Translations under genes and position numbers: made by a program
In this document: positions 511-29,500 of the stretch, piece by piece
Layout of the letters: the number at the start of each line of letters is the position of its first letter
Position numbering within the stretch: position 1 is the first letter of the stretch
Source: Paludibacteraceae bacterium
GTDB lineage: Bacteria > Bacteroidota > Bacteroidia > Bacteroidales > Paludibacteraceae
Assembly (NCBI GenBank): GCA_905234025.1
Contig: CAJOFT010000008.1
Span: forward strand, 1-32,721
DNA length: 32,721 nucleotides
Direction: 5' to 3'
The notes under the pieces: generated by a model
Told to the model about the DNA's origin: nothing
What the model saw: only the letters and a program-made list of their open reading frames with translations
Database searches by the model: none

Positions 511-562
511 CAAAAAGCGGACAAAATGCCGTTTTTATGCTGTAAAGCAGTTTTTTACTGCT
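510..562 (-). terminator. Weak terminator-like region after the 663-aa secreted protein gene
   Basis: On the minus strand AGCAGT (562-557) and ACTGCT (551-546) form a 6-bp hairpin whose loop overlaps the stop codon. About 20 nt further on is a second, weak GC-containing hairpin (CGG and CCG arms) followed by CTTTTT. Neither is a strong intrinsic terminator, but the next promoter begins immediately after, so termination here would make sense. Confidence 0.3.
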
Positions 563-2546
563 GTCTGCCCAAAACGTCAAAGCACTTGCCATTATAATAT
601 ATATATAGGTGTCCGTTGACAAGACGCTTTTCTACGAACGGTCTGTCATTAACTGCTTGAATCTCCTTTACAGCCGTAGGAACGGGCACTTCGTCAAGGT
701 AATACTTGGATGTTTTGCTTACGCCGGGCTGACCGCCATAGTTGGAAAGCACACCATATACCCAAACCTCATGTCCTTTGAGCGTCGGGTTGCTCACGAT
801 GTTCAAAGCATTGCGCACTTTGCCCTGCGGCAGTTCCACAAACACCATCTTCGACGGGTCTGTTTCTGTGGCGGAAGCGGCAATAGCTATCGCATTCGTA
901 GCTTCAGAACTCAAGGCACGAATCTTGATGTTCGGCTCAAAGCCGTCAATGATATAACCATGTACCCACGCTTTCCAGCCAGGGTTGTTCAGCGCCTGCA
1001 CATCCGGCACTTCGTACGGAGAAGTGGTGCTGCCTTCGGCGGTAACATTGGCGATGGCGTATTTGGCAGTGGTCACCTCGGACTTGTTGCCATCCTTAAC
1101 GGCGATAGCGCGGATGGTCAGTTTGTCCGCAACAGGAATAGCGGTGCTGTAAAGGGCTGACGACTCGGTCGGACGGGAACCGTCCAAGGTGTAGTAAATC
1201 TTTGCGCCTTCGGTGACAGAAGAGAGTTCAACCAGTTGTTCCGTCTTATAAACTCCCGCAGGCACGGACACATCCGGTGCTTCCGGCATACCGGGAACAG
1301 TGCCATAGACATCAATGGTTGTCACCTGTGCGGGATTGTCGTTGAGAACGGTCAGCACATACACATTACCCGCCGCACGGTAATCGCGGGAAATGAGATA
1401 GATATTTTCCTCCTGCGAACCGACAGTCGGCGCGCTTGCAGGATTTCCGCTGACCAGAATGTTCATCTCCGTCTTCGCGGAAGCCAACGATCTGCCTGTC
1501 ACGATAATCTTTGACACGCTGTACTCAAACGCAGGCAATGCCAACGTGGCATTCGCTTTGCCAAAGAGCAGGTAGCCGCCGCCCCAACTGCTCCACGTAT
1601 AACCGCCGTTGTTCTCTGTGTTTCCTGTTCCGGTGAGGGTAATGGTCTGCGACGTGCTGCTGTTCGTGAAACTCTTTGTTTCTGTCAGCCGCGATCCGCC
1701 GGTCGGAAAACCCCACGGATTAGCAGCAGGCGTGAAATCGAACAGCGCCAACGGTTCGTGTCCTTCAAACTCAGCGGTAACGGTTACATCGAATGCAGGC
1801 ATAAGAAACTGGTTGTCCGTAATGGGTTCTGTCTTGTCGCTCTCGCCGTCGTTGTAAGAATACACAAGCGAACCTTCCACATACTCATAGCCTTTAGCGG
1901 GCGTGAGGGTGATTTCCACCACTTCATCCTTGTTGGCAAACGCCATATCGGATGCAATCGTGCCTCCGTCCACCGTATTCAGCGTGATCTTATGCGGGCG
2001 GTTGTAATAAAGGGCAAAGGTCTCGTCCTTGATGTTGGTGGATGTCTGAGAAGAGTGGTTATAGACTTTCAGGTACGTTTTACCCTCGTTCTGATTGACG
2101 CCGATGTACTGGTTAACACTGCTTACTTCTGCGTAGAGATAGTAATCCGCTGACAGGTTCCAGACACAAGTTGCCGACTTGTTCGGTACGCTCACACGCA
2201 CGGCATCATGCGCATTACTGCTGGTAGCACTGGCGTTGATGTTCAGCATATTATTGCCGCTATTGAACGTGAAGTTGTCGCCGACTTTTCCCACCGTAAA
2301 GATGACTGTCTTGTCGGGTTCGATTTTTCCGTCCGTTTCCGTAATAACAATGGTAGTAGGCGCAGAACCGGTTGCCTCCTCTGCACTGATCGCATAGATG
2401 GTGCCTCCGAAGGCATACGTAAGAACAACCTGGTCACCGGTTTGGAGCGTGCCAAAGTCGGCATTGTTCAATTTGGTAAACGCAGCGGCTTGTGTTGCCA
2501 AAACCGCAACAAGTGCAAGAAGCACTGAAAGGAAATGTTTTTTCAT
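555..2546 (-). CDS. Secreted multidomain protein with chitobiase-C-like and InlB-like repeats
   Basis: A 663-aa protein with a signal peptide (residues 1-22, ending AQAAAF-like at the cleavage region). Visible modules are: an uncharacterised beta-rich segment (about 23-182); a segment resembling divergent InlB B-repeats (about 184-262, HKITLNTVDGG start); a beta-sandwich module (about 266-416) paralogous to the left-edge protein; a chitobiase/hexosaminidase C-terminal-like domain (about 424-498, with GAKIYYTLDGSRPT); and a segment resembling the DUF6359 family (about 508-620). The final 26 residues, with motif KRLVNGHLYIYYNGK and ending in VLGRQQ, resemble a short secretion tail also seen at the end of the 862-aa protein at 23568-26156. 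Function is unknown; a surface or extracellular role is inferred. The start lies 12 nt after the trxB stop, so it may be read through from the ftsK operon. Confidence 0.85.
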   Translation of the reverse strand: MKKHFLSVLLALVAVLATQAAAFTKLNNADFGTLQTGDQVVLTYAFGGTIYAISAEEATGSAPTTIVITETDGKIEPDKTVIFTVGKVGDNFTFNSGNNMLNINASATSSNAHDAVRVSVPNKSATCVWNLSADYYLYAEVSSVNQYIGVNQNEGKTYLKVYNHSSQTSTNIKDETFALYYNRPHKITLNTVDGGTIASDMAFANKDEVVEITLTPAKGYEYVEGSLVYSYNDGESDKTEPITDNQFLMPAFDVTVTAEFEGHEPLALFDFTPAANPWGFPTGGSRLTETKSFTNSSTSQTITLTGTGNTENNGGYTWSSWGGGYLLFGKANATLALPAFEYSVSKIIVTGRSLASAKTEMNILVSGNPASAPTVGSQEENIYLISRDYRAAGNVYVLTVLNDNPAQVTTIDVYGTVPGMPEAPDVSVPAGVYKTEQLVELSSVTEGAKIYYTLDGSRPTESSALYSTAIPVADKLTIRAIAVKDGNKSEVTTAKYAIANVTAEGSTTSPYEVPDVQALNNPGWKAWVHGYIIDGFEPNIKIRALSSEATNAIAIAASATETDPSKMVFVELPQGKVRNALNIVSNPTLKGHEVWVYGVLSNYGGQPGVSKTSKYYLDEVPVPTAVKEIQAVNDRPFVEKRLVNGHLYIYYNGKCFDVLGRQQ

Positions 2547-6860: not shown

Positions 6861-7130
6861 ATGTCTGAATGTGAAAACAAACCGACTAACTCCTGCGGCG
6901 GCTGTGCGCTAAAGTCGCATTGCAGCATCGTGGAGGAAGACAACCGGTTCACACGGCGGCAACGGTGGAAAGCACTGGCACTGGGCTATATTCTGCCGTT
7001 TGTGCTGTTGGCAGGCGTGATTGTTATCGCAGACACACTATCCGACAACGAATACCTCATCGGAGGACTTGCCTTGGCAACGGTCGGAATTTATTACACA
7101 ACCTTGTTTTTTATAAAACCAAAAGTATGA
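6861..7130 (+). CDS. rseC: Short RseC-like membrane protein, first gene of the rnf operon
   Basis: An 89-aa protein with a cysteine cluster (C12, C15, C21, in SCGGCALKSHC; also C4), followed by two membrane helices at about 38-58 and 65-84. RseC (SoxR-reducing system) proteins have an N-terminal soluble beta domain, a cysteine motif and two helices, and a gene of this family often precedes rnfB in Bacteroides. Here the soluble domain before the cysteines is missing: the promoter lies just upstream and the cysteines begin at residue 4. The stop overlaps the rnfB start in an ATGA (7127-7130). A role in Rnf assembly or cofactor delivery is inferred from context only. Confidence 0.75.
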   Translation: MSECENKPTNSCGGCALKSHCSIVEEDNRFTRRQRWKALALGYILPFVLLAGVIVIADTLSDNEYLIGGLALATVGIYYTTLFFIKPKV

Positions 7131-7984
7131 ATATAGTTGTAATTGCATTGCTCGTTCTGGGCGTGACGGGATTAACGGCGGCGATACTGCTGTTCGTGAC
7201 GGCTCAGAAGTTCAAAGTGGAAGAAGACCCGCGCATTGACGAGGTGGCGGAAGTCCTGCCCGGCGCAAACTGCGGCGGTTGCGGATTTGCCGGTTGCCGA
7301 GCTTTGGCGGAAGCCTGTGTGAAAGCGGATTCGCTGGACGGATTGCTGTGTCCTGTCGGCGGTAGCGAAACAATGGCAAAAGTGGCGGGGATTCTCGGAA
7401 TGGAAAGTGTAGCGGCAGAGCCGATGGTGGCTGTTGTACGATGCAACGGTACGTGTGAAGCGCGTCCGAAAACCAGCGAGTTCAACGGTTCACGGAGCTG
7501 CCAGATCATGCACAGTTGCTATGTGGGCGAAACGGCTTGTCCGTTCGGCTGTCTCGGTTGCGGCGATTGCGTGGCTGCGTGTCAGTTCGGCGCGCTGAGT
7601 ATGAATCCCGAAACAGGTTTGCCGGAAGTGGACGAAGAAAAATGTACGTCCTGCGGCAAGTGCGTCAAGGCGTGTCCGAGACAACTCATCGAACTGCGCA
7701 AGAAAGGTCCGAAGAGCCGCAGAATCGTTGTTCTGTGCCGCAACAAAGACAAAGGTGCCGTAACCCGCAAAGCCTGTCTGAACGGCTGTATAGGTTGCGG
7801 AAAGTGCCAGAAAGAGTGCAACTTCGAGGCAATAACCGTTGAGAACAACCTTGCGTATATCGACTTCAACAAATGCCGCTTGTGCCGCAAGTGTGAAGCT
7901 GCGTGCCCGACAGGTGCCATTCACGCCATCAACTTCCCGCCGCGGAAAGTAGAAGAACCTAAACAAGAGGAGGCAAACGTATGA
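7127..7984 (+). CDS. rnfB: Rnf electron transport complex subunit B (ferredoxin-type)
   Basis: A 285-aa iron-sulfur subunit of the membrane complex that oxidises reduced ferredoxin and passes electrons towards NAD+, coupled to Na+ or H+ export. It has an N-terminal membrane helix (about 3-24). A first [4Fe-4S] motif follows (C49, C52, C57, C75 in NCGGCGFAGC). Four ferredoxin-like cysteine motifs come next, starting near C138, C173, C217 and C250. The start was placed at the ATG overlapping the rseC stop, because it restores the membrane helix; the frame is open further upstream but there it only shadows rseC. The 3' end overlaps rnfC by 4 nt (ATGA). Confidence 0.96.
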   Translation: MNIVVIALLVLGVTGLTAAILLFVTAQKFKVEEDPRIDEVAEVLPGANCGGCGFAGCRALAEACVKADSLDGLLCPVGGSETMAKVAGILGMESVAAEPMVAVVRCNGTCEARPKTSEFNGSRSCQIMHSCYVGETACPFGCLGCGDCVAACQFGALSMNPETGLPEVDEEKCTSCGKCVKACPRQLIELRKKGPKSRRIVVLCRNKDKGAVTRKACLNGCIGCGKCQKECNFEAITVENNLAYIDFNKCRLCRKCEAACPTGAIHAINFPPRKVEEPKQEEANV

Positions 7985-9315
7985 GTACATTCAAGATTGG
8001 CGGAGTACATCCGCAAGATAACAAAGTATATAGCGCCGGAAAGGCGATTGTTGATTGCCCGCTGCCGCAAAAGGCAATTATCCCGTTGGTGCAACATATC
8101 GGAGCACCCGCGCAACCGGTGGTTGAGAAAGGCGACAAAGTGCGCGTCGGACAACTGATTGCCAAAGCTGGCGGTTTTGTTAGCGCAAATATCCACTCGC
8201 CGTTCAGCGGCACAATCGCAAAAATTGACACAACTGTTGACGGGTGGGGAGCCCGTGTTCCGGCAATATTCATTGACGTGGAAGGCGATATCTGGGAAGA
8301 CGGAATAGATAGTTCCGACAAACTTGTCCGCGAAGGGATTCTTGAACCGAAAGAAATCATCGACCGTATTTCCGCAGCCGGAATAGTTGGTCTCGGCGGC
8401 GCATGTTTCCCGACACATGTCAAGCTGATGCCGCCTCCAGGCAAAAAAGCCGAAGTGCTGATTGTGAACGGCGTGGAATGTGAACCGTATTTGACCTGTG
8501 ACCATCAGTTGATGATGGAAAAAGGCGAAGAAATAATCATCGGCATCCAACTTTTGACACGTGCTTTGGGTATTCAGCGTTCCATTATCGGCATCGAGAA
8601 GAACAAACCCGATGCGATTGCACATATGCAGAAACTTGCCAGCCGCGTATTAGGCATTTCGGTAATGCCGCTTAATCTCAAGTACCCGCAAGGCGGAGAA
8701 AAACAACTCATTGATGCCTGCATAGGCCGCCAAGTGCCAAGCGGTGCGCTGCCGATTGAAGTAGGAGCCGTGGTTGATAATGTGGCAACGGTATATGCCG
8801 TTTACGAGGCAGTACTGAAACGCAAACCGCTGATTTCACGCGTTATGACCGTAACCGGCAAAAACGTTGCCAAGCCCGGCAACTACCGTGTGCGTTTCGG
8901 CACGCCGTTGGCGGATGTGGTTGCATTGGCAGGCGGAGTGCCTGAAGACACCGGCAAGATTATCGGTGGCGGTCCTATGATGGGACGTGCTATGAACAGC
9001 ATTGACATGCCTGCCAACAAACGGGTCAGCGGATTGTTGTTTATGCCGGAAAGTGAATCGCGGCGTATTGAGCCGGAGAATTGCATCCGTTGCGCGAAAT
9101 GCGTAGGTGCCTGCCCGATGGGATTGGAGCCTTACCTGCTGGCACGCCAAGCCGAATTGCAACTTTGGGATGGCATGGAAGCCCATAATATTATGGATTG
9201 CATCGAGTGCGGCTGCTGCACGTTCACATGCCCGAGCCACCGTCCGTTATTGGATTATGTGCGTATGGGCAAAGCCAAAGTCGGCGGCATCATACGCGCC
9301 CGCAATGCCAAATAA
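7981..9315 (+). CDS. rnfC: Rnf electron transport complex subunit C
   Basis: A 444-aa peripheral subunit that hands electrons to NAD+. Motifs include GLGGACFPT (138-146) and NGVECEPY (163-170), typical of the FMN/NADH-binding fold shared with the complex I 51-kDa subunit. Two [4Fe-4S] motifs are present: C368-C371-C374-C378 (CIRCAKCVGAC) and C407-C410-C413-C417 (CIECGCCTFTC). Length is usual for the Bacteroides subunit. It overlaps rnfB by 4 nt. The spacer to rnfD (9316-9348) consists largely of an octamer repeat. Confidence 0.97.
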   Translation: MSTFKIGGVHPQDNKVYSAGKAIVDCPLPQKAIIPLVQHIGAPAQPVVEKGDKVRVGQLIAKAGGFVSANIHSPFSGTIAKIDTTVDGWGARVPAIFIDVEGDIWEDGIDSSDKLVREGILEPKEIIDRISAAGIVGLGGACFPTHVKLMPPPGKKAEVLIVNGVECEPYLTCDHQLMMEKGEEIIIGIQLLTRALGIQRSIIGIEKNKPDAIAHMQKLASRVLGISVMPLNLKYPQGGEKQLIDACIGRQVPSGALPIEVGAVVDNVATVYAVYEAVLKRKPLISRVMTVTGKNVAKPGNYRVRFGTPLADVVALAGGVPEDTGKIIGGGPMMGRAMNSIDMPANKRVSGLLFMPESESRRIEPENCIRCAKCVGACPMGLEPYLLARQAELQLWDGMEAHNIMDCIECGCCTFTCPSHRPLLDYVRMGKAKVGGIIRARNAK

Positions 9316-9322
9316 AATAAAA

Positions 9323-9362
9323 AAATGATTAAATGAGAAAATAAGAAAATGAATAAATTGAT
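9323..9362 (+). repeat. Octamer tandem repeat (AAATGnnn) spanning the rnfD start
   Basis: Five consecutive 8-nt units: AAATGATT, AAATGAGA, AAATAAGA, AAATGAAT and AAATTGAT. The rnfD start codon (9349-9351) is inside the fourth unit. A similar array lies at 17185-17232 between the thioredoxin and antiporter genes. Confidence 0.7.
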
Positions 9363-10347
9363 TGTTTCTCCGGCGCCTCACACCCATAGCGGTGACAGTG
9401 TGCGCAGAAATATGTTACTCGTGATTTTGGCGCTTGTGCCTGCGTTTGCCGTTTCAATGGCGGCATTCGGCTGGGGCGTGCTTATCACGACCGCCATCAG
9501 CATCGCAGCCTGTGTCGGCTTCGAGTGGCTGATTGCGAAGTTCATTCTCAAACAAGAACCGACCATCGGCGATCTTTCCGCTGTATTGACGGGCTTGCTG
9601 CTGGCATTCAACCTGCCGAGCAACCTGCCATGGTGGATTGTCATTATCGGCGCATTTGTCGCCATTGCAATCGGCAAAATGTCGTTTGGCGGACTTGGGC
9701 AGAACCTTTTCAATCCGGCATTGGTCGGACGTGTGTTCCTGCTCATTTCATTCCCTGTACAGATGACCACTTGGCCGCGTCCGTTGGGATTTGTGACAGG
9801 TTATATTGATGCCGCAACAGGTGCCACACCGCTTGCCGCCATGAAGCAAATCGTCAAAGGCGGCGACGCTTCTGCAATTGGCAAACTTCCCGAACTGTGG
9901 GATTCGTTCATTGGTCTGGTTGGCGGTTCATTCGGTGAGGTTTGTGCATTGGCGCTTATTCTGGGCGGTTTGTTGCTGATTGTCACTCGCGTCATCACAT
10001 GGCATATACCGGTTTCTGTACTCGCAACGGCAGCACTCTTTGCGGCTGTAACAGGCTTGTGTGGCGGACTTCCTGAAGGTTTCGGCACCGGTGAGTATGT
10101 GCTGATGACCCTTTGCACCGGTGGTTTGATGTTGGGTGCTTTCTTCATGGCAACCGATTACGTCACTTCTCCAATGAGTGCCTGGGGCAAGATTATCTTC
10201 GGCGTAGGCATTGGCTTTATCGCAATGGTAATCCGTACGTGGGGCGCATATCCCGAAGGCGTTTCTTTTGCGATTCTGATTATGAACGCCTGTGTACCTT
10301 TGTTGAACAAGATTCGCCCGAAACGCTTCGGCGAGCAAAAAAAGTAA
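9349..10347 (+). CDS. rnfD: Rnf electron transport complex subunit D
   Basis: A 332-aa polytopic NqrB/RnfD-family membrane subunit. About nine to ten hydrophobic segments can be seen between residues 22 and 310. The motif DAATGAT (154-160) corresponds to the covalent FMN attachment site, with T160 the likely attachment residue. Other family motifs are GDLSAVLTGLLLAFNLP (74-90) and GQNLFNPALVGR (117-128). Translation starts within an octamer repeat that takes the place of a normal spacer. The rnfG start follows 4 nt after its stop. Confidence 0.96.
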   Translation: MNKLIVSPAPHTHSGDSVRRNMLLVILALVPAFAVSMAAFGWGVLITTAISIAACVGFEWLIAKFILKQEPTIGDLSAVLTGLLLAFNLPSNLPWWIVIIGAFVAIAIGKMSFGGLGQNLFNPALVGRVFLLISFPVQMTTWPRPLGFVTGYIDAATGATPLAAMKQIVKGGDASAIGKLPELWDSFIGLVGGSFGEVCALALILGGLLLIVTRVITWHIPVSVLATAALFAAVTGLCGGLPEGFGTGEYVLMTLCTGGLMLGAFFMATDYVTSPMSAWGKIIFGVGIGFIAMVIRTWGAYPEGVSFAILIMNACVPLLNKIRPKRFGEQKK

Positions 10348-13194: not shown

Positions 13195-15912
13195 TCATTT
13201 CATAAACTTCTCGTAATCCTCCACGGAGAACGTTGCGGGAATAAGTTTATAATTATCCTCTGTGATACACAGGAACGTGAGCTGCAATTCTTTGAAAAGG
13301 AGTTGCAGTTCGCTGTTTTTGGCTGTCAACCCGAGATACCAGTCTGTTTCGCCGAGATTCTCAAAGCCCGAAATACGCAGTGCGCAGCCATTTTCCCAAA
13401 CAGGCATTTTCTGGAGGTCAAAGTCACGGATCAGGAACTGCGAGAAGTTGAATAGTGCCACTTCGTACAGCAGTTTGTTCAGTTTCTGTTCATCCGTTTC
13501 GGGCAGGCAGAGCAGAATAAGACTTGCCGTATTGGTTTCTTTGGAGAATTGTTTCTCTGCCGCTGCTTCTTCGGGTGCTTCTTCCGTTTGTTGGCGAAGT
13601 TCGTCCAAATCGGATGTCATCGCACCTTTCTGGCTTTCCATGCCTTGCCCCATCATCGCGAGCATATCCTTTGCCATCGCACCGAGTTCGCTCTCGGGAT
13701 AACGGGAAACCATGTCCTTGAGTTCGGCGATAAACGCGTCTTGTCCGTCTGTCCGTGCAACCGCCACGGCATTTAGGAACAGGAAGCGTGGCATCAGCGG
13801 TGACAGCGGATATTCCTCTTCTGCATATTTCTTGTTGGCTTTGACCGTTGCAAATTCACTCTTGCGGTATGCGTTGTAGGTCGCTTCATAGACGGAATCC
13901 TGCTCTTGCGCCATGCGTTGCAGTTTCTCGAAGTAATCCGGCTGCGAAACAATTCGTGCCTGATCTGTATCCGGCCAACGGCGCATAATCTCCTGCCGGT
14001 AACGTTCCGCCGCAAGATTGTCCTGTGCTTTGAGTGCTTGCAGGTACTTCATATAATAGAGGTCTGTCAACCGCCTGTCATCCGGGAAACGGCGCTCGAA
14101 ATCGGCAAAGGTTTCGTCTGCCAGTTGCTGGTCACCGACTTTGTCCTGATAAATATATATAAGGGCATAGAGCGCATCGGCAATAAGGCTGTCGGAAAGG
14201 GCTATGTCCTCTTCTGTTTTGGGAATCTGCTGGAGGTAATATTCTGGCTTGTGCGTGTCAGTTTCCGGCACGACAACGGTGGAATCCGCTGCTGTGTCCG
14301 AACCTTCTGTTCCTTCTCCGTCCTGCCCGGCTTGGTCGTCATTTGTATCGTTGCCAAAGGTGGACACGGCTGCTTTGCTTCGTCTGCGCCAGTTGTCTTC
14401 GAGTGTACGCGTTCCCCATTGTTTGACGAACTGCTGTTTACCGGAGCGCATCAACTGGGCATTATAGAAATACCAATCTGCGGCAGCACCTCCGGCTCCG
14501 CCGATCATATTCTGCGTATTGACGCTTTGCAGACCTTCGTTCTCCGCCTCGCGTTGGGCAATCAGTTCTTTCTCCGCAGCTTCTTCTTCGGCTTTGATGA
14601 GGTCTTCAATGATTTTGTCCACAACCTTGCGTTGCTCTTCCGGCGTAAGCTTTGACAACCGTTGCAACGAATCCTGCAACTGTACGGTGGAGTAGGTTGC
14701 AATCAGTTCGTCCAACACTTCCGAACGCTTCATCAGACGGTCATAATCCTCGTTTTCAGCAGGGATTATGGTCACGGCCTCCTGATAGCAGGGCTGTGCA
14801 GGTACATAATCGCGCCGGTCAAAGTTTATATCGCCTGCTTTGACCAGTACGGCAGCTTTGGCAGGACCTGCCTGCGTACTTTTCTCAATGGCGATGGTAT
14901 AGTTTTCAAGTGCCTTGGTTGTATCACCGGAAGCGAGGTAGATATCTCCGATTGCGCCGTAAATGCGGTCGAGTTGGTCCTTGTGCTTTGCCAATTTCGC
15001 CATCTTCTCCAGTTTCTTCACGGCGGAACGTCCCTGCATCATAGCGAGGTTGATGCGCGCGTTGAAATCCATTGCCGGAACAGGAGCCATGCGGATGCAG
15101 CGTTTGTAAGCTTCTTCGGCTTCCTTGCGTTTGCCTTCCATTTGGTAAAGTTGTCCGAGCACATATACGAATCGTGGTCTGTGCACCTTGCGTTTCTCGT
15201 CCGGAGCAGCAATCTTGACAAACGGAATCGCTTCGTGGTATTGTTTGCCTTTGAGGAGCACATCGGCTTTTGCGGCGGAATATTCGGACGCATGTTTGCG
15301 GCTCAGTGCATCCACATTGACTTTGTTTATCATATCTTCCGCCTCATACTGCCAGCCCATTTCGGCATATGCCCGTGCAACGCGCAACTGGCATCGTGCT
15401 ACCACGTCCGGATCGTTTTCATAGTGCCTGATTACATAATTGAATGTTCCGACACTGCCAAGAAAATCGCCTTTGTAGAACTCTGATTCGCCCAACCGGA
15501 TCCACACGTTTCCCATCTGGTTATTGAATTCTTCTTGTTCGAGCCAGAGCTTGTAATTCGGGTCCTTGCGCTTTTTCGGGTCAGGTTTGGGTTTGGACTT
15601 GATGCTGTGCAGTTTGATGCACTTGCGGCATTTCTCAATCGTCTTGTCCATCTGGGAAGCGGAAGCTTCGGCAGCTTTGTGGTTGCTGACAGGATACAAC
15701 GGAATGACATCAGAGAAATCGTCCTCATTGGCTTTGATGATGGCTTGCTGTCCTTCCTGAAAAGCGATATTTCCATTGAAGAAGATGTTGTACTTCACCT
15801 TCGTCTGATGGAACGAACGTGTCGCCGCCGTATTATTCTGCGTGGAGCAGGCGGTGTTCAGGACAAGCGGCAGTGCTATAAGTCCAAATAATATGATTCG
15901 TATATTTTTCAC
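13195..15912 (-). CDS. porW: T9SS lipoprotein PorW/SprE, TPR-containing
   Basis: A 905-aa lipoprotein. The signal peptide ends LNTAC with C22 as the lipidated cysteine (a slightly atypical lipobox). The segment after it, RSFHQTKVKYNIFFNGNIAF (32-51), is the recognisable N-terminal pattern of PorW/SprE. Tetratricopeptide-like helices follow (about 130-400). A charged and low-complexity middle contains EEEAAEKEL and the DNDDQAGQDGEGTEGSD-type stretch, and there are more helical repeats towards the C-terminus. PorW/SprE is needed for type IX secretion and gliding in Bacteroidetes and is thought to link motor and outer-membrane parts. The start is a GTG at 15912 that overlaps the tsaB stop by one base (TAGTG). 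Length is near that of Flavobacterium SprE. Confidence 0.85.
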   Translation of the reverse strand: MKNIRIILFGLIALPLVLNTACSTQNNTAATRSFHQTKVKYNIFFNGNIAFQEGQQAIIKANEDDFSDVIPLYPVSNHKAAEASASQMDKTIEKCRKCIKLHSIKSKPKPDPKKRKDPNYKLWLEQEEFNNQMGNVWIRLGESEFYKGDFLGSVGTFNYVIRHYENDPDVVARCQLRVARAYAEMGWQYEAEDMINKVNVDALSRKHASEYSAAKADVLLKGKQYHEAIPFVKIAAPDEKRKVHRPRFVYVLGQLYQMEGKRKEAEEAYKRCIRMAPVPAMDFNARINLAMMQGRSAVKKLEKMAKLAKHKDQLDRIYGAIGDIYLASGDTTKALENYTIAIEKSTQAGPAKAAVLVKAGDINFDRRDYVPAQPCYQEAVTIIPAENEDYDRLMKRSEVLDELIATYSTVQLQDSLQRLSKLTPEEQRKVVDKIIEDLIKAEEEAAEKELIAQREAENEGLQSVNTQNMIGGAGGAAADWYFYNAQLMRSGKQQFVKQWGTRTLEDNWRRRSKAAVSTFGNDTNDDQAGQDGEGTEGSDTAADSTVVVPETDTHKPEYYLQQIPKTEEDIALSDSLIADALYALIYIYQDKVGDQQLADETFADFERRFPDDRRLTDLYYMKYLQALKAQDNLAAERYRQEIMRRWPDTDQARIVSQPDYFEKLQRMAQEQDSVYEATYNAYRKSEFATVKANKKYAEEEYPLSPLMPRFLFLNAVAVARTDGQDAFIAELKDMVSRYPESELGAMAKDMLAMMGQGMESQKGAMTSDLDELRQQTEEAPEEAAAEKQFSKETNTASLILLCLPETDEQKLNKLLYEVALFNFSQFLIRDFDLQKMPVWENGCALRISGFENLGETDWYLGLTAKNSELQLLFKELQLTFLCITEDNYKLIPATFSVEDYEKFMK

Positions 15913-23567: not shown

Positions 23568-26156
23568 TTATTTCACCACGGCTCCGGTGAGGGTGTAGAT
23601 ATGTCCGTTGCGGAGAATCATTACCTGTCCGTTATACAGCTCTTTCCGGACTGTGGTTGCTTCGTCCGCAACCTTCTCTGTTCCGGTTCCGATAGCAGAT
23701 GCCGTATAGCTTGCTACAGCACTATCGCTGTCGGTCTTGCCGTCTGCCGTTGCGTAGGCGGAAATAACAGTCATACCGGTAATGGTCACCTCTGCGGTAT
23801 TGCCGCTACTTACATAATCCGAAACGCCGTTGATGGTATAGTGTATAACGGCACCTGTCTCGGCGCTGATGGTCACTACCGTTCCGCTTTCATATTCACC
23901 GTCCGCCAGACTGAATACAGGTGTACCGGTTTTCGGTACGGTATAGGTAACACTTACCACTTCGCTGTTCAGCATGCCCTTATGGGCGCGATAGGCTTTG
24001 ATGGTTGTCGTTTTGGAAATCGTCCATGCGGCACCGCCTAACAGATATAACCATTCTCCGTCGTCCTGCGAATAATAGATGGTGTCGCCTGTCACGCCCG
24101 CAACCGTCACGTTGCTGCCTGCGGGAACCTCTCCCGCGGGAAGACTGAATACCGGCTTTTCCGCCTGCGGCAGAACAACCTTGTAATGCCGTGTCACGGT
24201 GCTGCTGTTCGTGTGACCGTCCTGAGCGGCGTATGCCGTGATAGTGACATCCTCCGTAATGGGGACGCTGACGCTTTCCACGGCAACGTTGTTTTTCCCG
24301 TTGACCGAATACATGATTTTTACACCTGCTGCCACGCTGATGGTAACCGTATTGCCGTACTGAACGGACGCATTGTCCGCTAACGAGAATACGGGGGCAT
24401 CCAGCGAACCGTATGTGATGGTATAGGTTGCTGTGGCAGTGGTACTTGTGGTGTAACCCTCACGGGTCAAATATGCACTGACGGTCACGGTTGCGCCGTT
24501 GTCGCCCGATAGTGTGACAGTTTTGTTTCCGGTTGTCGTACTCTCGGCACCGCCGTTGATGCTGTAGTGCAGTGTTGCAAGGGCGTCACTGGACTCTATC
24601 GTCAGCTCCGTACCCCATGCAACCGAACTTCCGCCGGCAATGGAGAAAGTCGGCGCAGTCAATGTCGGCTTCGGGGCATCGGAAACCGTATAGACGCCTT
24701 TCACCGTCCAACTGGTGCTCTTGCCCTCCTTGACGGCGTATGCCATTATAGTAACAGGCGATGTAATCGTCAATGCTCCGCTGTAGGCGCTATAGGTACT
24801 GCCGCCGTCCACGGAATAGTATATCTTTGCACCGGTTTCGCCGTTCAATGCCACCTTTGTGCCGCTTGTTACGGCACCAGGGCTGACGCTCAATGTCGGA
24901 GTGGCGGTCTGCGCCGTGTAACGTTCAATATAATCTATATCGTCCACATACAGGCTTATGCCGCCTGACTGGATGCGGAAGCGCACAATATCCGTACTGC
25001 TGATACCCGTCAGCGGTATTTCAAACCGTTGCATGGTGGTGGCAAGGTCTGTCTTGGTCAGTTCGCGCAGGGTCTGCCAGTCACCGCCTGCCCAAGTCTG
25101 GCTGCCGCCTTCGGACACCATCGTTCCTTTCTGGTAGGAGACGGTAATGGATGCTTCGCTCTTTTTCGCGGCATAGATACTTAATCCCGCAGGGCAGGGT
25201 ACAGCAGGCGTATAAATCACACTTGCGGACTTGATGCGGAAATACGGCGTGCCGCTTTTGGTGGCACCGCGGTCTTCCGTTTCTGAGGAAGCGATACTGC
25301 AATCCGGCCAGAAGTTCGCATCGGAACAGGGGTTCTGTGTCACTTTTCCGACTGCTGTCTTGATGGTCTTGGTGACGATGTCGCTCATCCCCAAGTCTGA
25401 TGTCCATGCTCCCACTTTCAGCGTCACGGTACTGCCCGCAGTGATGTTCACCCGCGTAGCGGACGTGGAAGACGTTGTCGGCGTGCTGCCGTCCGTGGTA
25501 TAATAAATGACTGCTCCTGCGCTTGTGCTTGCGAGGTCGGCATATACTTTGTCCGAGGCATAGTAGGTTGTGTCTCCTGCATTGGCGACGTATTCGGAAT
25601 TGCTGCCGTCAATAGAGATGGTCGGCATATCCGTTTTGCCGTCATACGATGTCCAGTGCACATTGAAGATATTGATACGGATGTCTTCTCCGCTCACGCC
25701 TTCCTGCATAGTGATGGACAAGGTGGATACGTCGCGCACTTTAAGGGTGGCACTCAGTTCATAAACCGTACCGATTACTTTCACATTGCCCGTTACATTG
25801 ACCGTTTTGCTGCCTGCTTTGACCACAAAGACACGGTTTACTCCATAGCCTTTGGTGGCACTGTTGGCACCGCTGATGCTGAATTTCACTTCGCCGATAC
25901 CTTCGTCCACGGAGGTTGTTCCGAGTGTGCCGCTGATACCGTTACCGCTGACGCCGCCGCTGATTGTTAGAGCTTTGTAGGTGCCTACGGTACTGTTACG
26001 CAATCCCACAACGGTCCATGAATCGCCGTTATTGCCGCTGAAACTCTTGCTTTCGCTGATACTGCTTGTACTTACATTTTCCAACGGAATACTGCCTTCC
26101 GCATAAACGCCTGCGCATACCATCAGCACCGCAATAATTGCTATCGTCTTTTTCAT
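23568..26156 (-). CDS. Secreted protein with tandem chitobiase-C-like domains
   Basis: An 862-aa protein with a signal peptide (MKKTIAIIAVLMVCAGVYAE). Modules are: a beta-rich N-terminal segment (about 21-170); a chitobiase/hexosaminidase C-terminal-like domain (about 175-268, with IYYTTDGSTPTTSS); a jelly-roll-like segment (about 275-412, ending LYVDDIDYIERY); and five tandem chitobiase-C-like repeats (about 418-820), each with the pattern P-x-FSLA/LSVSPG, then a YYSxDGG-type turn, then an ITAYA strand. The last 36 residues end in KELYNGQVMILRNG and YTLTGAVVK, a tail like that of the 663-aa protein at 555-2546. No catalytic domain is seen; a structural or adhesive surface role is inferred. 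The ATG at 26156 was preferred over an upstream in-frame start at 26186, which would overlap the preceding gene. It is the last gene of its operon. Confidence 0.85.
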   Translation of the reverse strand: MKKTIAIIAVLMVCAGVYAEGSIPLENVSTSSISESKSFSGNNGDSWTVVGLRNSTVGTYKALTISGGVSGNGISGTLGTTSVDEGIGEVKFSISGANSATKGYGVNRVFVVKAGSKTVNVTGNVKVIGTVYELSATLKVRDVSTLSITMQEGVSGEDIRINIFNVHWTSYDGKTDMPTISIDGSNSEYVANAGDTTYYASDKVYADLASTSAGAVIYYTTDGSTPTTSSTSATRVNITAGSTVTLKVGAWTSDLGMSDIVTKTIKTAVGKVTQNPCSDANFWPDCSIASSETEDRGATKSGTPYFRIKSASVIYTPAVPCPAGLSIYAAKKSEASITVSYQKGTMVSEGGSQTWAGGDWQTLRELTKTDLATTMQRFEIPLTGISSTDIVRFRIQSGGISLYVDDIDYIERYTAQTATPTLSVSPGAVTSGTKVALNGETGAKIYYSVDGGSTYSAYSGALTITSPVTIMAYAVKEGKSTSWTVKGVYTVSDAPKPTLTAPTFSIAGGSSVAWGTELTIESSDALATLHYSINGGAESTTTGNKTVTLSGDNGATVTVSAYLTREGYTTSTTATATYTITYGSLDAPVFSLADNASVQYGNTVTISVAAGVKIMYSVNGKNNVAVESVSVPITEDVTITAYAAQDGHTNSSTVTRHYKVVLPQAEKPVFSLPAGEVPAGSNVTVAGVTGDTIYYSQDDGEWLYLLGGAAWTISKTTTIKAYRAHKGMLNSEVVSVTYTVPKTGTPVFSLADGEYESGTVVTISAETGAVIHYTINGVSDYVSSGNTAEVTITGMTVISAYATADGKTDSDSAVASYTASAIGTGTEKVADEATTVRKELYNGQVMILRNGHIYTLTGAVVK

Positions 26157-26550: not shown

Positions 26551-29500
26551 TTATCGTACAAACGTCTTGACGGCGGCATTGCCTTCAGCCGATTGGATCA
26601 CGATATTATATACGCCCTGCTGCGGTGCGTCAACGTTCACCACATGTTCGCCGTCTGCTTTGCCTTGACGCATCAGTTTGCCGACCATGTCGAATACGAG
26701 TACTTCGGCGTCCGCAGGTACGTTGCAGATACTTATCTGTCCGTTGTTGCAGACAACTGTCACATGCTCGCCGTTGATGGTCTCCGTTGAGGTGGTTACT
26801 TGTGCGGCGCGACGGATGCGGACGCTGTAGCCCGTATTCGTACCCTTCGCAGCTTCAATGGTGTAATCCTCAATCAGCAGGTTCGCAACCACGTTGCCGT
26901 TGTACAGCAACTCGATGCTTTCCGCACCCTTCGTCCGGCTGGAGCCTTCGTTCAGGCTGATGGTGTACTTGCCAGCCTTCGGCGCGTACAGTTCCATAGC
27001 CACATTCTCCGCATTGGCATCCGGAAGGGCGATATATGCCATCTTCTCGTTGCTTGCGTCAAGGAAGTACAACTGCGGTTTCGCGGCAGCGGCGTACATC
27101 TTGGTCAGGTCTCCGGCAATCTCGTATTCCGGCGTGAAGCAGTCATCCACTACTACACCGGCAATATCGCTCATGCCTTCTCCGTTTACGGTCAGGTCAA
27201 CCTCTACGCGTTGTTTCTGTGCGGTAGCCTTGCGGGCGGGAGCAGCTGACAGCGTGCGGTCTGCCTTCTGATAGGTCAGATTCAGCGTGTTGTCAGTACC
27301 GTTGGTCGGGTCAACTGTCTGTACGAAGTAGCCCTTGAACGGCTCTATCGTTGTAGCCGAAGCCTTCGCCTGTTTATAGGTCTTGGAGTTGCCTCCGTTC
27401 GGGATGGATACATAGACATAATCCAAATCTTCATATTCACCGGTCAGTTCGTTAACCATACCCAAAATCAGGTTTGTTTTGTTGTTCAAACCGTGACCAT
27501 CTACTGACGAACCGAACATACTGATATACGGTGAGCCGACGAAGTTCCAGCCGTGGTGGCGCTTGTCGTTCGCCAGACCATCCACCCAGTTATATACATC
27601 CGTTGTCTTCGCGTCATCACCTGCCTCGGTATATTCCTTCGTGGTCTTCGGCGGGAAGTAAACGCTCTTGAACTGTCCGTCCCATTCGGTGGTGAACAGA
27701 CCGATGATATATGCCTCGTTCGCTTTCAGCGTGCCGCTTACCGGCATCTGCTTCCAGTACTTCGAGCTTGTTCCGGGATAAGCGCTTGAGCCTTCCGACT
27801 GACGGGCGGCACCGTCGTAGTACTTGATGCCCCAGTCTTCCCAGTACTCACCCATCGTCTTACCGTTCTGCTGGCGGATTGCCGAGATATCGCAGTCGTA
27901 AGGCAGTGAGAACGGATACCAGTACTGGTCATCAATACGTTTCACGTGAACAACCTTGCCTGCGGCTATCGTGCTTCCGTTGTTGTTGATGATAGCGTAA
28001 CCGACCTCGTCGTTCTTCGCCTCCATCAGCAGACCGTCTAACAGGAAGCCCTGTTTTGCGCTGTTGTCAAAGCTTGCACCCGGATATACGGTCATGTTGC
28101 GGAACTGGCTGACACCGCCGCTTACGTGGCTCAGTTTTGCCTCGTCACGGATAACAACGTCACAGTTGGCGCATGTGTCACCTCCGAACGAGAACAAATC
28201 AGCCGTTGTCAATTTGTTGGCATCTACTACGATAGGCACTTTGTAGTCCTCGGAGGCATGAACGTTCTCTGACAATACACCGTTAATCGTGTCTATACTC
28301 ATCACCTCAATATGTATCGTCTTGCAATAGAACTCAGGTACATCCATTTCAACGGTGAATGAACCATCCGGATTCCTGTCTGCGCCTACTTCGTAATCGC
28401 CGACTTCTGTCCAAGCATTGTAGTAACCTGCATAGTCGTAACTACCCACGAACGAGAAGTTCGAGCACGATACGGCATCCTGGTCTCCTTCGGTCGGTAC
28501 GTGCGAGCCTTGCCATTCGGTATTCAGCGTCACCATATTTTCAATATTGCTGTTGATGGCATTGGCTCCGCTGGTTACATTCTTCCTGCGCACCAACAAG
28601 CAACGGTTGGTGGATAGCAGATAGCCCGGATGCTCGGAACTGGTGTTATAGTCGCTCGCTCCACTCATGTCTTGACCGTAACCTACCCAACCTTTGTCAT
28701 CACCGTCCTCATATTCACCGGTCTTGCTGTTGTACCAGTGCCATGCACCTTGTACGTTCTTGCCGCTCGGTGAACCGCCGTCTGTCCGGCCGCCGATGAT
28801 ATCCAGCATGTACCAGTCGCCGCGGGCATTGCTGTACGGCTCGGGCCAACTGATGGCAGCACCGGTCTTGGCGCTGGTAGTCGGTAGCGCATTATTGCGG
28901 GCAATAGTTACTGCGTCGGTCTTACGTACCAACATAAGTGCATCGTCACCACTGAACGAGAGTGGCAAATCAGACGACGTACCTTCCTGCCACCAGGTAC
29001 TCATCACATCTATTCCGACAGCATTCTGTTCGCAGGTTCCTACTTGGTTGGTCGTATAAACCACAATCTCTTCGTCAGGACATATCCAGCCCGGTTTGAT
29101 ATTACCCATTTCGCTCAAATCCATGACATTGGAGTGCCATCCGTCATATTTGCTGGACGAACGCCATACCTCCATACCTGCCAACGAAATAGTATCGTTC
29201 GTCGGGTTGAAGATTGCCCAGAGTTTCTTGTGGCTGTATGCCTCGTAGTACTTCGAGAAGAAGATTTCGTCACCGACGTTGAGTTCAATCTCGTCTGCCG
29301 TCTTCTCGCGGTTCATTACAATACGCACACTGTCAGCCTCTACGTTATGCTCTATCTTCAGTTCTGAATTGCTGATTTCCGTTACTTCCACAATCGGTTT
29401 GTCGGTGTCTTCACCGGCAGTTACCGTCCAATTAATATTCACTGTCACGGGTTCTGCCAATCCGCGGGTGTTAAGTATAACCGGACAAGTACCTGTGCTT

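Follow-up and report, generated by a model that had tools for sequence, protein, structure and literature searches.

The window, by which we mean the entire 32,721-nucleotide stretch analysed here, comes from contig 8 of a Paludibacteraceae draft genome (1.94 Mb, 79% complete). The lineage is one of ruminant and horse gut bacteria, and its nearest named relatives, judged by PorW (80–86% identical), are MAGs of Paludibacteraceae that were recovered from red deer and reindeer. Near one end of the window lies the gene for P0001 (555–2546, minus strand), a secreted protein of 663 aa in which domain searches found Flg_new_2, CHB_HEX_C_1/Fn3_assoc and DUF6359 domains between the signal peptide and a short C-terminal tail. 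P0002 (23568–26156, minus strand) is a secreted protein of 862 aa when counted from its ATG, or 872 aa with an upstream GTG start; the same search found five CHB_HEX_C_1 repeats in it, again followed by a short tail. The signal peptides of both proteins are clear. Beside P0001, on the minus strand at 2–403, is the start of another secreted protein, lost at the contig end; at least part of it is similar to P0001, and it is probably a tandem paralogue. The RNF electron-transport genes for an RnfB-like ferredoxin, RnfC and RnfD stand in a row on the plus strand (6920–10347).

Two further features of the window concern the type IX secretion machinery (T9SS) and its classical signal. The gene for the T9SS lipoprotein PorW/SprE (13195–15912, minus strand; NF052312, E 4.5e-192, 640 bits against a cut-off of 250) shares the window with the tail proteins and is flanked by housekeeping genes. 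P0003 (26551–32721, minus strand) is longer than 2,040 aa and open at the contig end. Its C-terminus is a full-length type A-like CTD (26554–26775, minus strand) containing NNGQISI...VLVFDMVGK, which we used as a comparison domain; this CTD is divergent and stays under the Pfam and NCBIfam cut-offs (TIGR04183, E 4e-4).

P0001 ends in KRLVNGHLYIYYNGKCFDVLGRQQ (558–629, minus strand; profile A1, E 3.9e-13), with its stop codon directly after at 555–557, and P0002 ends in KELYNGQVMILRNGHIYTLTGAVVK (23571–23645, minus strand; profile A1, E 5.8e-14; stop at 23568), which AlphaFold predicted to be a three-stranded meander. The initial annotation had quoted both tails and described a shared K-x-L-x-N-G pattern, and translation of the two ORFs reproduced them exactly. 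The putative whole sorting signal of P0001 would comprise 39 aa, from a candidate cleavage-like element (PT/AVKEI, the slash marking the inferred cut) to the C-terminus (558–674, minus strand).

Searching the genome with single tails returned 28 places with the P0001 tail and 60 with the P0002 tail, many more than chance would produce. A tail profile of 50 rows and 33 positions (match threshold E ≤ 4e-4) raised this to 83 matches in the draft. The stop codon lay 0–5 residues past the tail match in all 66 ORFs fetched from the genome, and the tails of the named relatives were likewise all at the extreme C-terminus. When the tails of this genome and of relatives were pooled, the Asn/Asp of an Asn/Asp-Gly pair stood exactly 21 residues before the C-terminus in 127 of 172. 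Conservation over 159 tails was strongest at Gly33 (100%), Tyr/Phe29 (99%), Gly17 (98%), Lys12 (96%) and Ile21 (94%), with Gly17 preceded by Asn or Asp in about 80%. Pfam and NCBIfam searches with 50 tails gave chance matches only: none of the 50 matched PF18962 or TIGR04183, and the NCBIfam models of the T9SS type B and type C CTD families gave no meaningful match. By eye, the tails contained no hydrophobic transmembrane stretch with basic residues of the PEP-CTERM or LPXTG type.

The initial annotation had reasoned that a sorting role should appear as many profile matches confined to signal-peptide proteins, and that a tail that was rare or carried by cytoplasmic proteins would speak against it. 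We found the opposite of the latter: the roughly 83 copies fall almost only on signal-peptide proteins, and among the complete carriers of this genome a heuristic rule recognised a signal peptide on 46 of 50. The other four seem to be frameshifted or to lack their true N-terminus. Applied to 80 PorW loci from named relatives and the window, the same rule scored 41 of 41 complete carriers from the relatives, compared to 332 of 806 other ORFs (pooled enrichment, Fisher p about 3e-26); this rule is permissive, so weight should go to the contrast rather than to the rate itself. The proteins that bear the tail have unrelated bodies and include BspA LRR proteins, endonuclease I, C10, M6 and S8 peptidases, amylases, and Ig-like and fn3 proteins. 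Within the same genome, the C10 peptidases L250 and L262 carry the short tail and the cysteine peptidase L389 carries a full CTD.

We compared the tail with the classical type A CTD (PF18962/TIGR04183, Por_Secre_tail), in which motif A corresponds to strands 1–2, motif B to strands 3–4, and motifs C, D and E to strands 5, 6 and 7 (PMC4804311). An AlphaFold model made with 48 tails placed strands at residues 17–22, 25–30 and 33–35, separated by two-residue turns, with pLDDT of about 90 over residues 21–43. A model made with 13 CTDs from within the genus (mean pLDDT 92.5) showed a strand at 7–12, a two-residue turn, a strand starting at 15, Tyr29, Gly33 and further strands up to residue 67. Strand 1 with its turn had the same length in both models, as did the Tyr-x3-Gly of motif B, while the turn Gly and the motif-B Tyr were 11 residues apart in the tail compared to 15 in the CTD. 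The tails end about 4 residues past the motif-B Gly. Motif B of real CTDs was matched by positions 24–33 of the tail profile, and homology of the motif-B end of the tail to the CTD is reasonably supported. Aligned against the whole CTD by hhalign, the tail gave a weak match (probability 28–38%, P about 3–6e-4; score 17.75 versus 17.3 for the best of 200 shuffles), and a Foldseek search of the PDB with the 43-residue tail model returned no significant match. The spacing and the models, rather than statistics, support the predicted homology of strands 1–2 of the tail to strands 1–2 of the CTD. Judged from sequence and predicted structure, the tail would correspond to CTD strands 1–3 with motif B, and motifs C, D and E are missing.

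An element resembling Gly/Ala-Ile/Val-Glu occurred upstream of 59 of 172 tails; a control stretch had it in 4 of 172, and shuffling predicted 14. It stood 16–17 residues before the Asn-Gly in 43 of the 59, a quarter of all tails, and the distance from it to the C-terminus was mostly 37–38 residues. A strict cleavage motif was considered as a defining feature of the tail and dropped, as only a third of tails have one. The element may be related to the PT/GI site at which the short CTDs of Prevotella intermedia, whose cargo is glycosylated, are cleaved (PMC11969387); Ile follows the cleavage point there and the putative one here.

The relationship between the two signals was clearest on endonuclease I, which we took as a neutral cargo. 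A quick tree of the enzyme domain included 71 proteins from the genus, with CTD type assigned by eye; 53 had the short tail and 18 a type A-like CTD, and the enzyme in order relatives had a CTD or neither signal. The tail label required 12 changes on this tree, at least 8 of the changes being forced by strongly supported branches, and tail and CTD replaced each other at least 10 times within the genus, counts to which chimeras in the draft genomes could contribute a few false switches. Enzyme identity was 58–74% in five of six switch pairs compared, and 45% in the sixth (L239/L385). Several pairs switch signals at one common point past the enzyme. The pair L352/L340, 62% identical over 299 residues, is an example: L352 ends in SQAIDLVPTTNDQIPTTCRKLLRNGQILILRGDKTYDITGRLVE and L340 in ATAVENTQQEEFAVRVSGAALSVVLPKAADIRIFDTMGRLVISRQSSELHVTLPDGLYLVGVGNSIRKVIVSVR, and in their alignment the short tail stops directly after the motif-B GRLV. 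On this evolutionary evidence, tail and type A CTD are interchangeable between cargo proteins. The initial annotation had read the tail as the first half of a sorting domain, and the endonuclease pairs, the AlphaFold models and the motif-B match all agree with this; the part before motif B is statistically weak.

The balance between the two signals differed sharply from that in related families. The median number of PF18962 CTDs per genome was 4 in the genus compared to at least 43 in the order's other families. Within the genus, tail and PF18962 counts were inversely related (Spearman –0.32, p 0.006, uncorrected for relatedness and completeness). PF18962 found 5 CTDs in the present genome compared to about 83 tails. 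It undercounts, since a genus-tuned profile found about 11 type A CTDs here, PorU's own and five profile seeds among them; by the tuned profile, short tails exceed type A CTDs about 7 to 1. PorU itself (G000:C41:5567–8863; L003, L390) retains a full-length type A CTD, with most cargo short-tailed. We rejected the idea that type A CTDs are confined to machinery such as PorU, because a cysteine peptidase and an extracellular nuclease also carry one. Three genomes of the genus, G356, G373 and G401, have few tails (11, 9 and 3, respectively), with 18 type A CTDs in G356 and 21 in G373; these genomes may preserve the state before the tail expanded. Many Paludibacteraceae MAGs (loci L128–L193) encode, upstream of PorW, a pair of neighbouring secreted proteins with the tail, each of about 400–450 aa; at some loci a single one is seen. 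Next comes a protein of 1,700–2,150 aa with a type A-like CTD, and the two signals are thus in use alongside each other.

All 73 genomes of the genus contained the tail, at 3 to at least 66 copies each. The profile found none in 47 genomes from other families of the order, nor in 345 sampled genomes of other Bacteroidota. We had entertained a restriction to one genus and rejected it when a family-wide search detected 1–10 copies in 30 of 180 genomes from other genera of Paludibacteraceae. The initial annotation had proposed a test for co-occurrence with T9SS genes, and the tail genomes do encode this system. The three components that made up our T9SS check, SprA, PorU and PorW, are all present in this genome, and SprA was found in 68 and PorU in 70 of the 73 genus genomes. 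Every genome without SprA or PorU is 54–84% complete and every genome more than 85% complete has both; the absence of SprA from five of the genomes (54–84% complete) probably reflects missing sequence. One of the incomplete genomes (G390, 59% complete) lacks both SprA and PorU, yet has 38 tails. Nearly all order relatives have a T9SS and none has the tail, and thus a T9SS alone does not bring the tail with it.

We consider it likely that truncation of a type A CTD produced the tail and that this lineage uses it as its main T9SS sorting signal. The initial annotation had left open a shortened T9SS signal or a different sorting tail; the signal-peptide carriers, the T9SS-encoding genomes, motif B and the signal swaps support the former and make the latter less likely. 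Tail proteins would be recognized by PorV, exported by the T9SS and cleaved by PorU. The N-terminal signal peptide, as predicted from sequence, would direct Sec export to the periplasm, where the T9SS would read the last 37–39 residues of the cargo. This signal would begin with the Gly/Ala-Ile/Val-Glu element, which resembles a PorU cleavage site, and continue with strand 1 and its near-invariant Lys, the Asn/Asp-Gly turn, strand 2 and a second tight turn (usually Asp/Asn-Gly). Strand 3 would then end in the motif-B loop, Tyr-x-x-x-Gly-Gln/Arg-x-Val. Compared to a normal CTD, the predicted fold has a strand 2–3 connection four residues shorter and lacks strands 4–7. The reader is likely PorV or a PorV-like shuttle acting through motif B, which we propose because models for other species place motif B inside the barrel of PorV. 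The cargo would pass through SprA, and PorU would then remove the tail.

A strong argument against this mechanism comes from Porphyromonas gingivalis, which needs the C-terminal part of the CTD that is missing here (PMC10202324, PMC11285876). Removal of the two C-terminal residues of RgpB blocked its export (PMC11285876, PMC10202324), and the last 22 residues of HBP35 suffice as a signal (cited in PMC10202324 and PMC11285876). In P. gingivalis, export by a signal that lacks motifs D and E would thus be expected to fail. The motifs known as essential would be retained if the tail were instead a mini-CTD with reordered strands, in which motif D is represented by strand 2 (NGxLYIxRDGK) and motif E by the conserved Lys, both placed before motif B, so that B, D and E would be shown to PorV on one face. 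The strand order in the AlphaFold model of the tail would bring the Lys strand end, NG-x-x-Tyr and the Tyr-x3-Gly loop together at one end, and the CTD motif-D stretches GIYILLVDGK and GLYIVSDGQ score against tail positions 17–24, at about 0 bits. However, strand 1, the N-G turn and strand 2 are spaced as in CTD strands 1–2, and in the alignments of the endonuclease pairs the tail falls on the first half of the CTD in native order; we think reordering unlikely, if worth keeping in mind.

The confinement of the tail to one family, and the absence from it of PF18962, TIGR04183 and other NCBIfam signatures, would fit a tag for a different surface system, with its own outer-membrane receptor or sortase, that has taken over T9SS cargo. 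The tail nevertheless contains CTD motif B and often a PorU-like cleavage element, it and the type A CTD replace each other on homologous enzymes, and SprA and PorU occur together in every genus genome over 85% complete; we regard a separate system as quite improbable. A short, beta-rich tail could also serve enzymes and adhesins as a binding hairpin or in some other functional role that has nothing to do with sorting, an explanation we find very hard to reconcile with many unrelated bodies, a position always at the extreme C-terminus and carriers that are almost only signal-peptide proteins. Finally, the tails do resemble CTDs cut past motif B, as decayed and functionless remnants would. Their fixed length, the near-invariant Gly33, Gly17, Lys12, Ile21 and Tyr/Phe29, and the presence of about 83 copies here and of the tail throughout the genus indicate selection, and we give decay almost no credence.

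Taking the tail as a truncated type A CTD, we compared it with described T9SS signals. It shares with the type A CTD its C-terminal position, cargo with signal peptides, the Tyr-x3-Gly of motif B and, as predicted, the strand 1–2 hairpin with its N/D-G turn, and the two occur beside each other in one genome and in neighbouring genes. The type A CTD, however, spans 67–88 aa in a seven-stranded Ig-like fold in which motif B is followed by motifs D (GxY) and E (basic C-terminus), whereas the tail has about 37–39 aa and three predicted strands, without C, D or E. The short CTDs of P. intermedia are also shortened, with a predicted three-stranded sheet and long CTDs alongside, but they have 43–55 aa and contain motifs B, D and E in order, while the tail stops at B (PMC11969387). 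Models have them bind PorV in the manner of long CTDs, the loop of motif B reaching furthest into the barrel (PMC11969387). The HBP35 minimal signal, as cited in PMC10202324 and PMC11285876, is of similar size (22 residues, compared to a tail core of 21–25) and consists of the other half of the CTD, with motifs D and E. Alternative C-terminal T9SS signals also include the type B and type C CTDs (PMC10202324), from which the 50 searched tails differ in giving no meaningful match to any NCBIfam model. P. intermedia has been described as the only species reported to have both CTD lengths (PMC11969387); our search of open-access papers found short CTDs only in that species and no paper on the present tail.

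The tail probably works as a T9SS signal. We are evenly divided on the fuller proposal that it represents a further class of roughly 38-residue T9SS signals without motifs C–E, to which most cargo of the genus has switched from the classical CTD and for which an adapted PorV-type shuttle is the reader. What is known of CTD signal content comes mainly from P. gingivalis, where motifs D and E are needed and are sufficient in one protein (PMC10202324, PMC11285876); CTDs are species-specific (PMC11285876). If the proposal is true, the accepted minimal T9SS signal of motifs D and E would not be universal. The tail would be a large natural experiment that keeps the opposite half of the CTD, and no candidate signal centred on motif B is smaller. 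Homologous enzymes that come in pairs with little but the signal to tell them apart could show which contacts are needed by PorV and PorU. For this gut lineage, secretome prediction based on PF18962 would miss most of the likely T9SS cargo, finding 5 proteins in the present genome where about 83 carry the tail.
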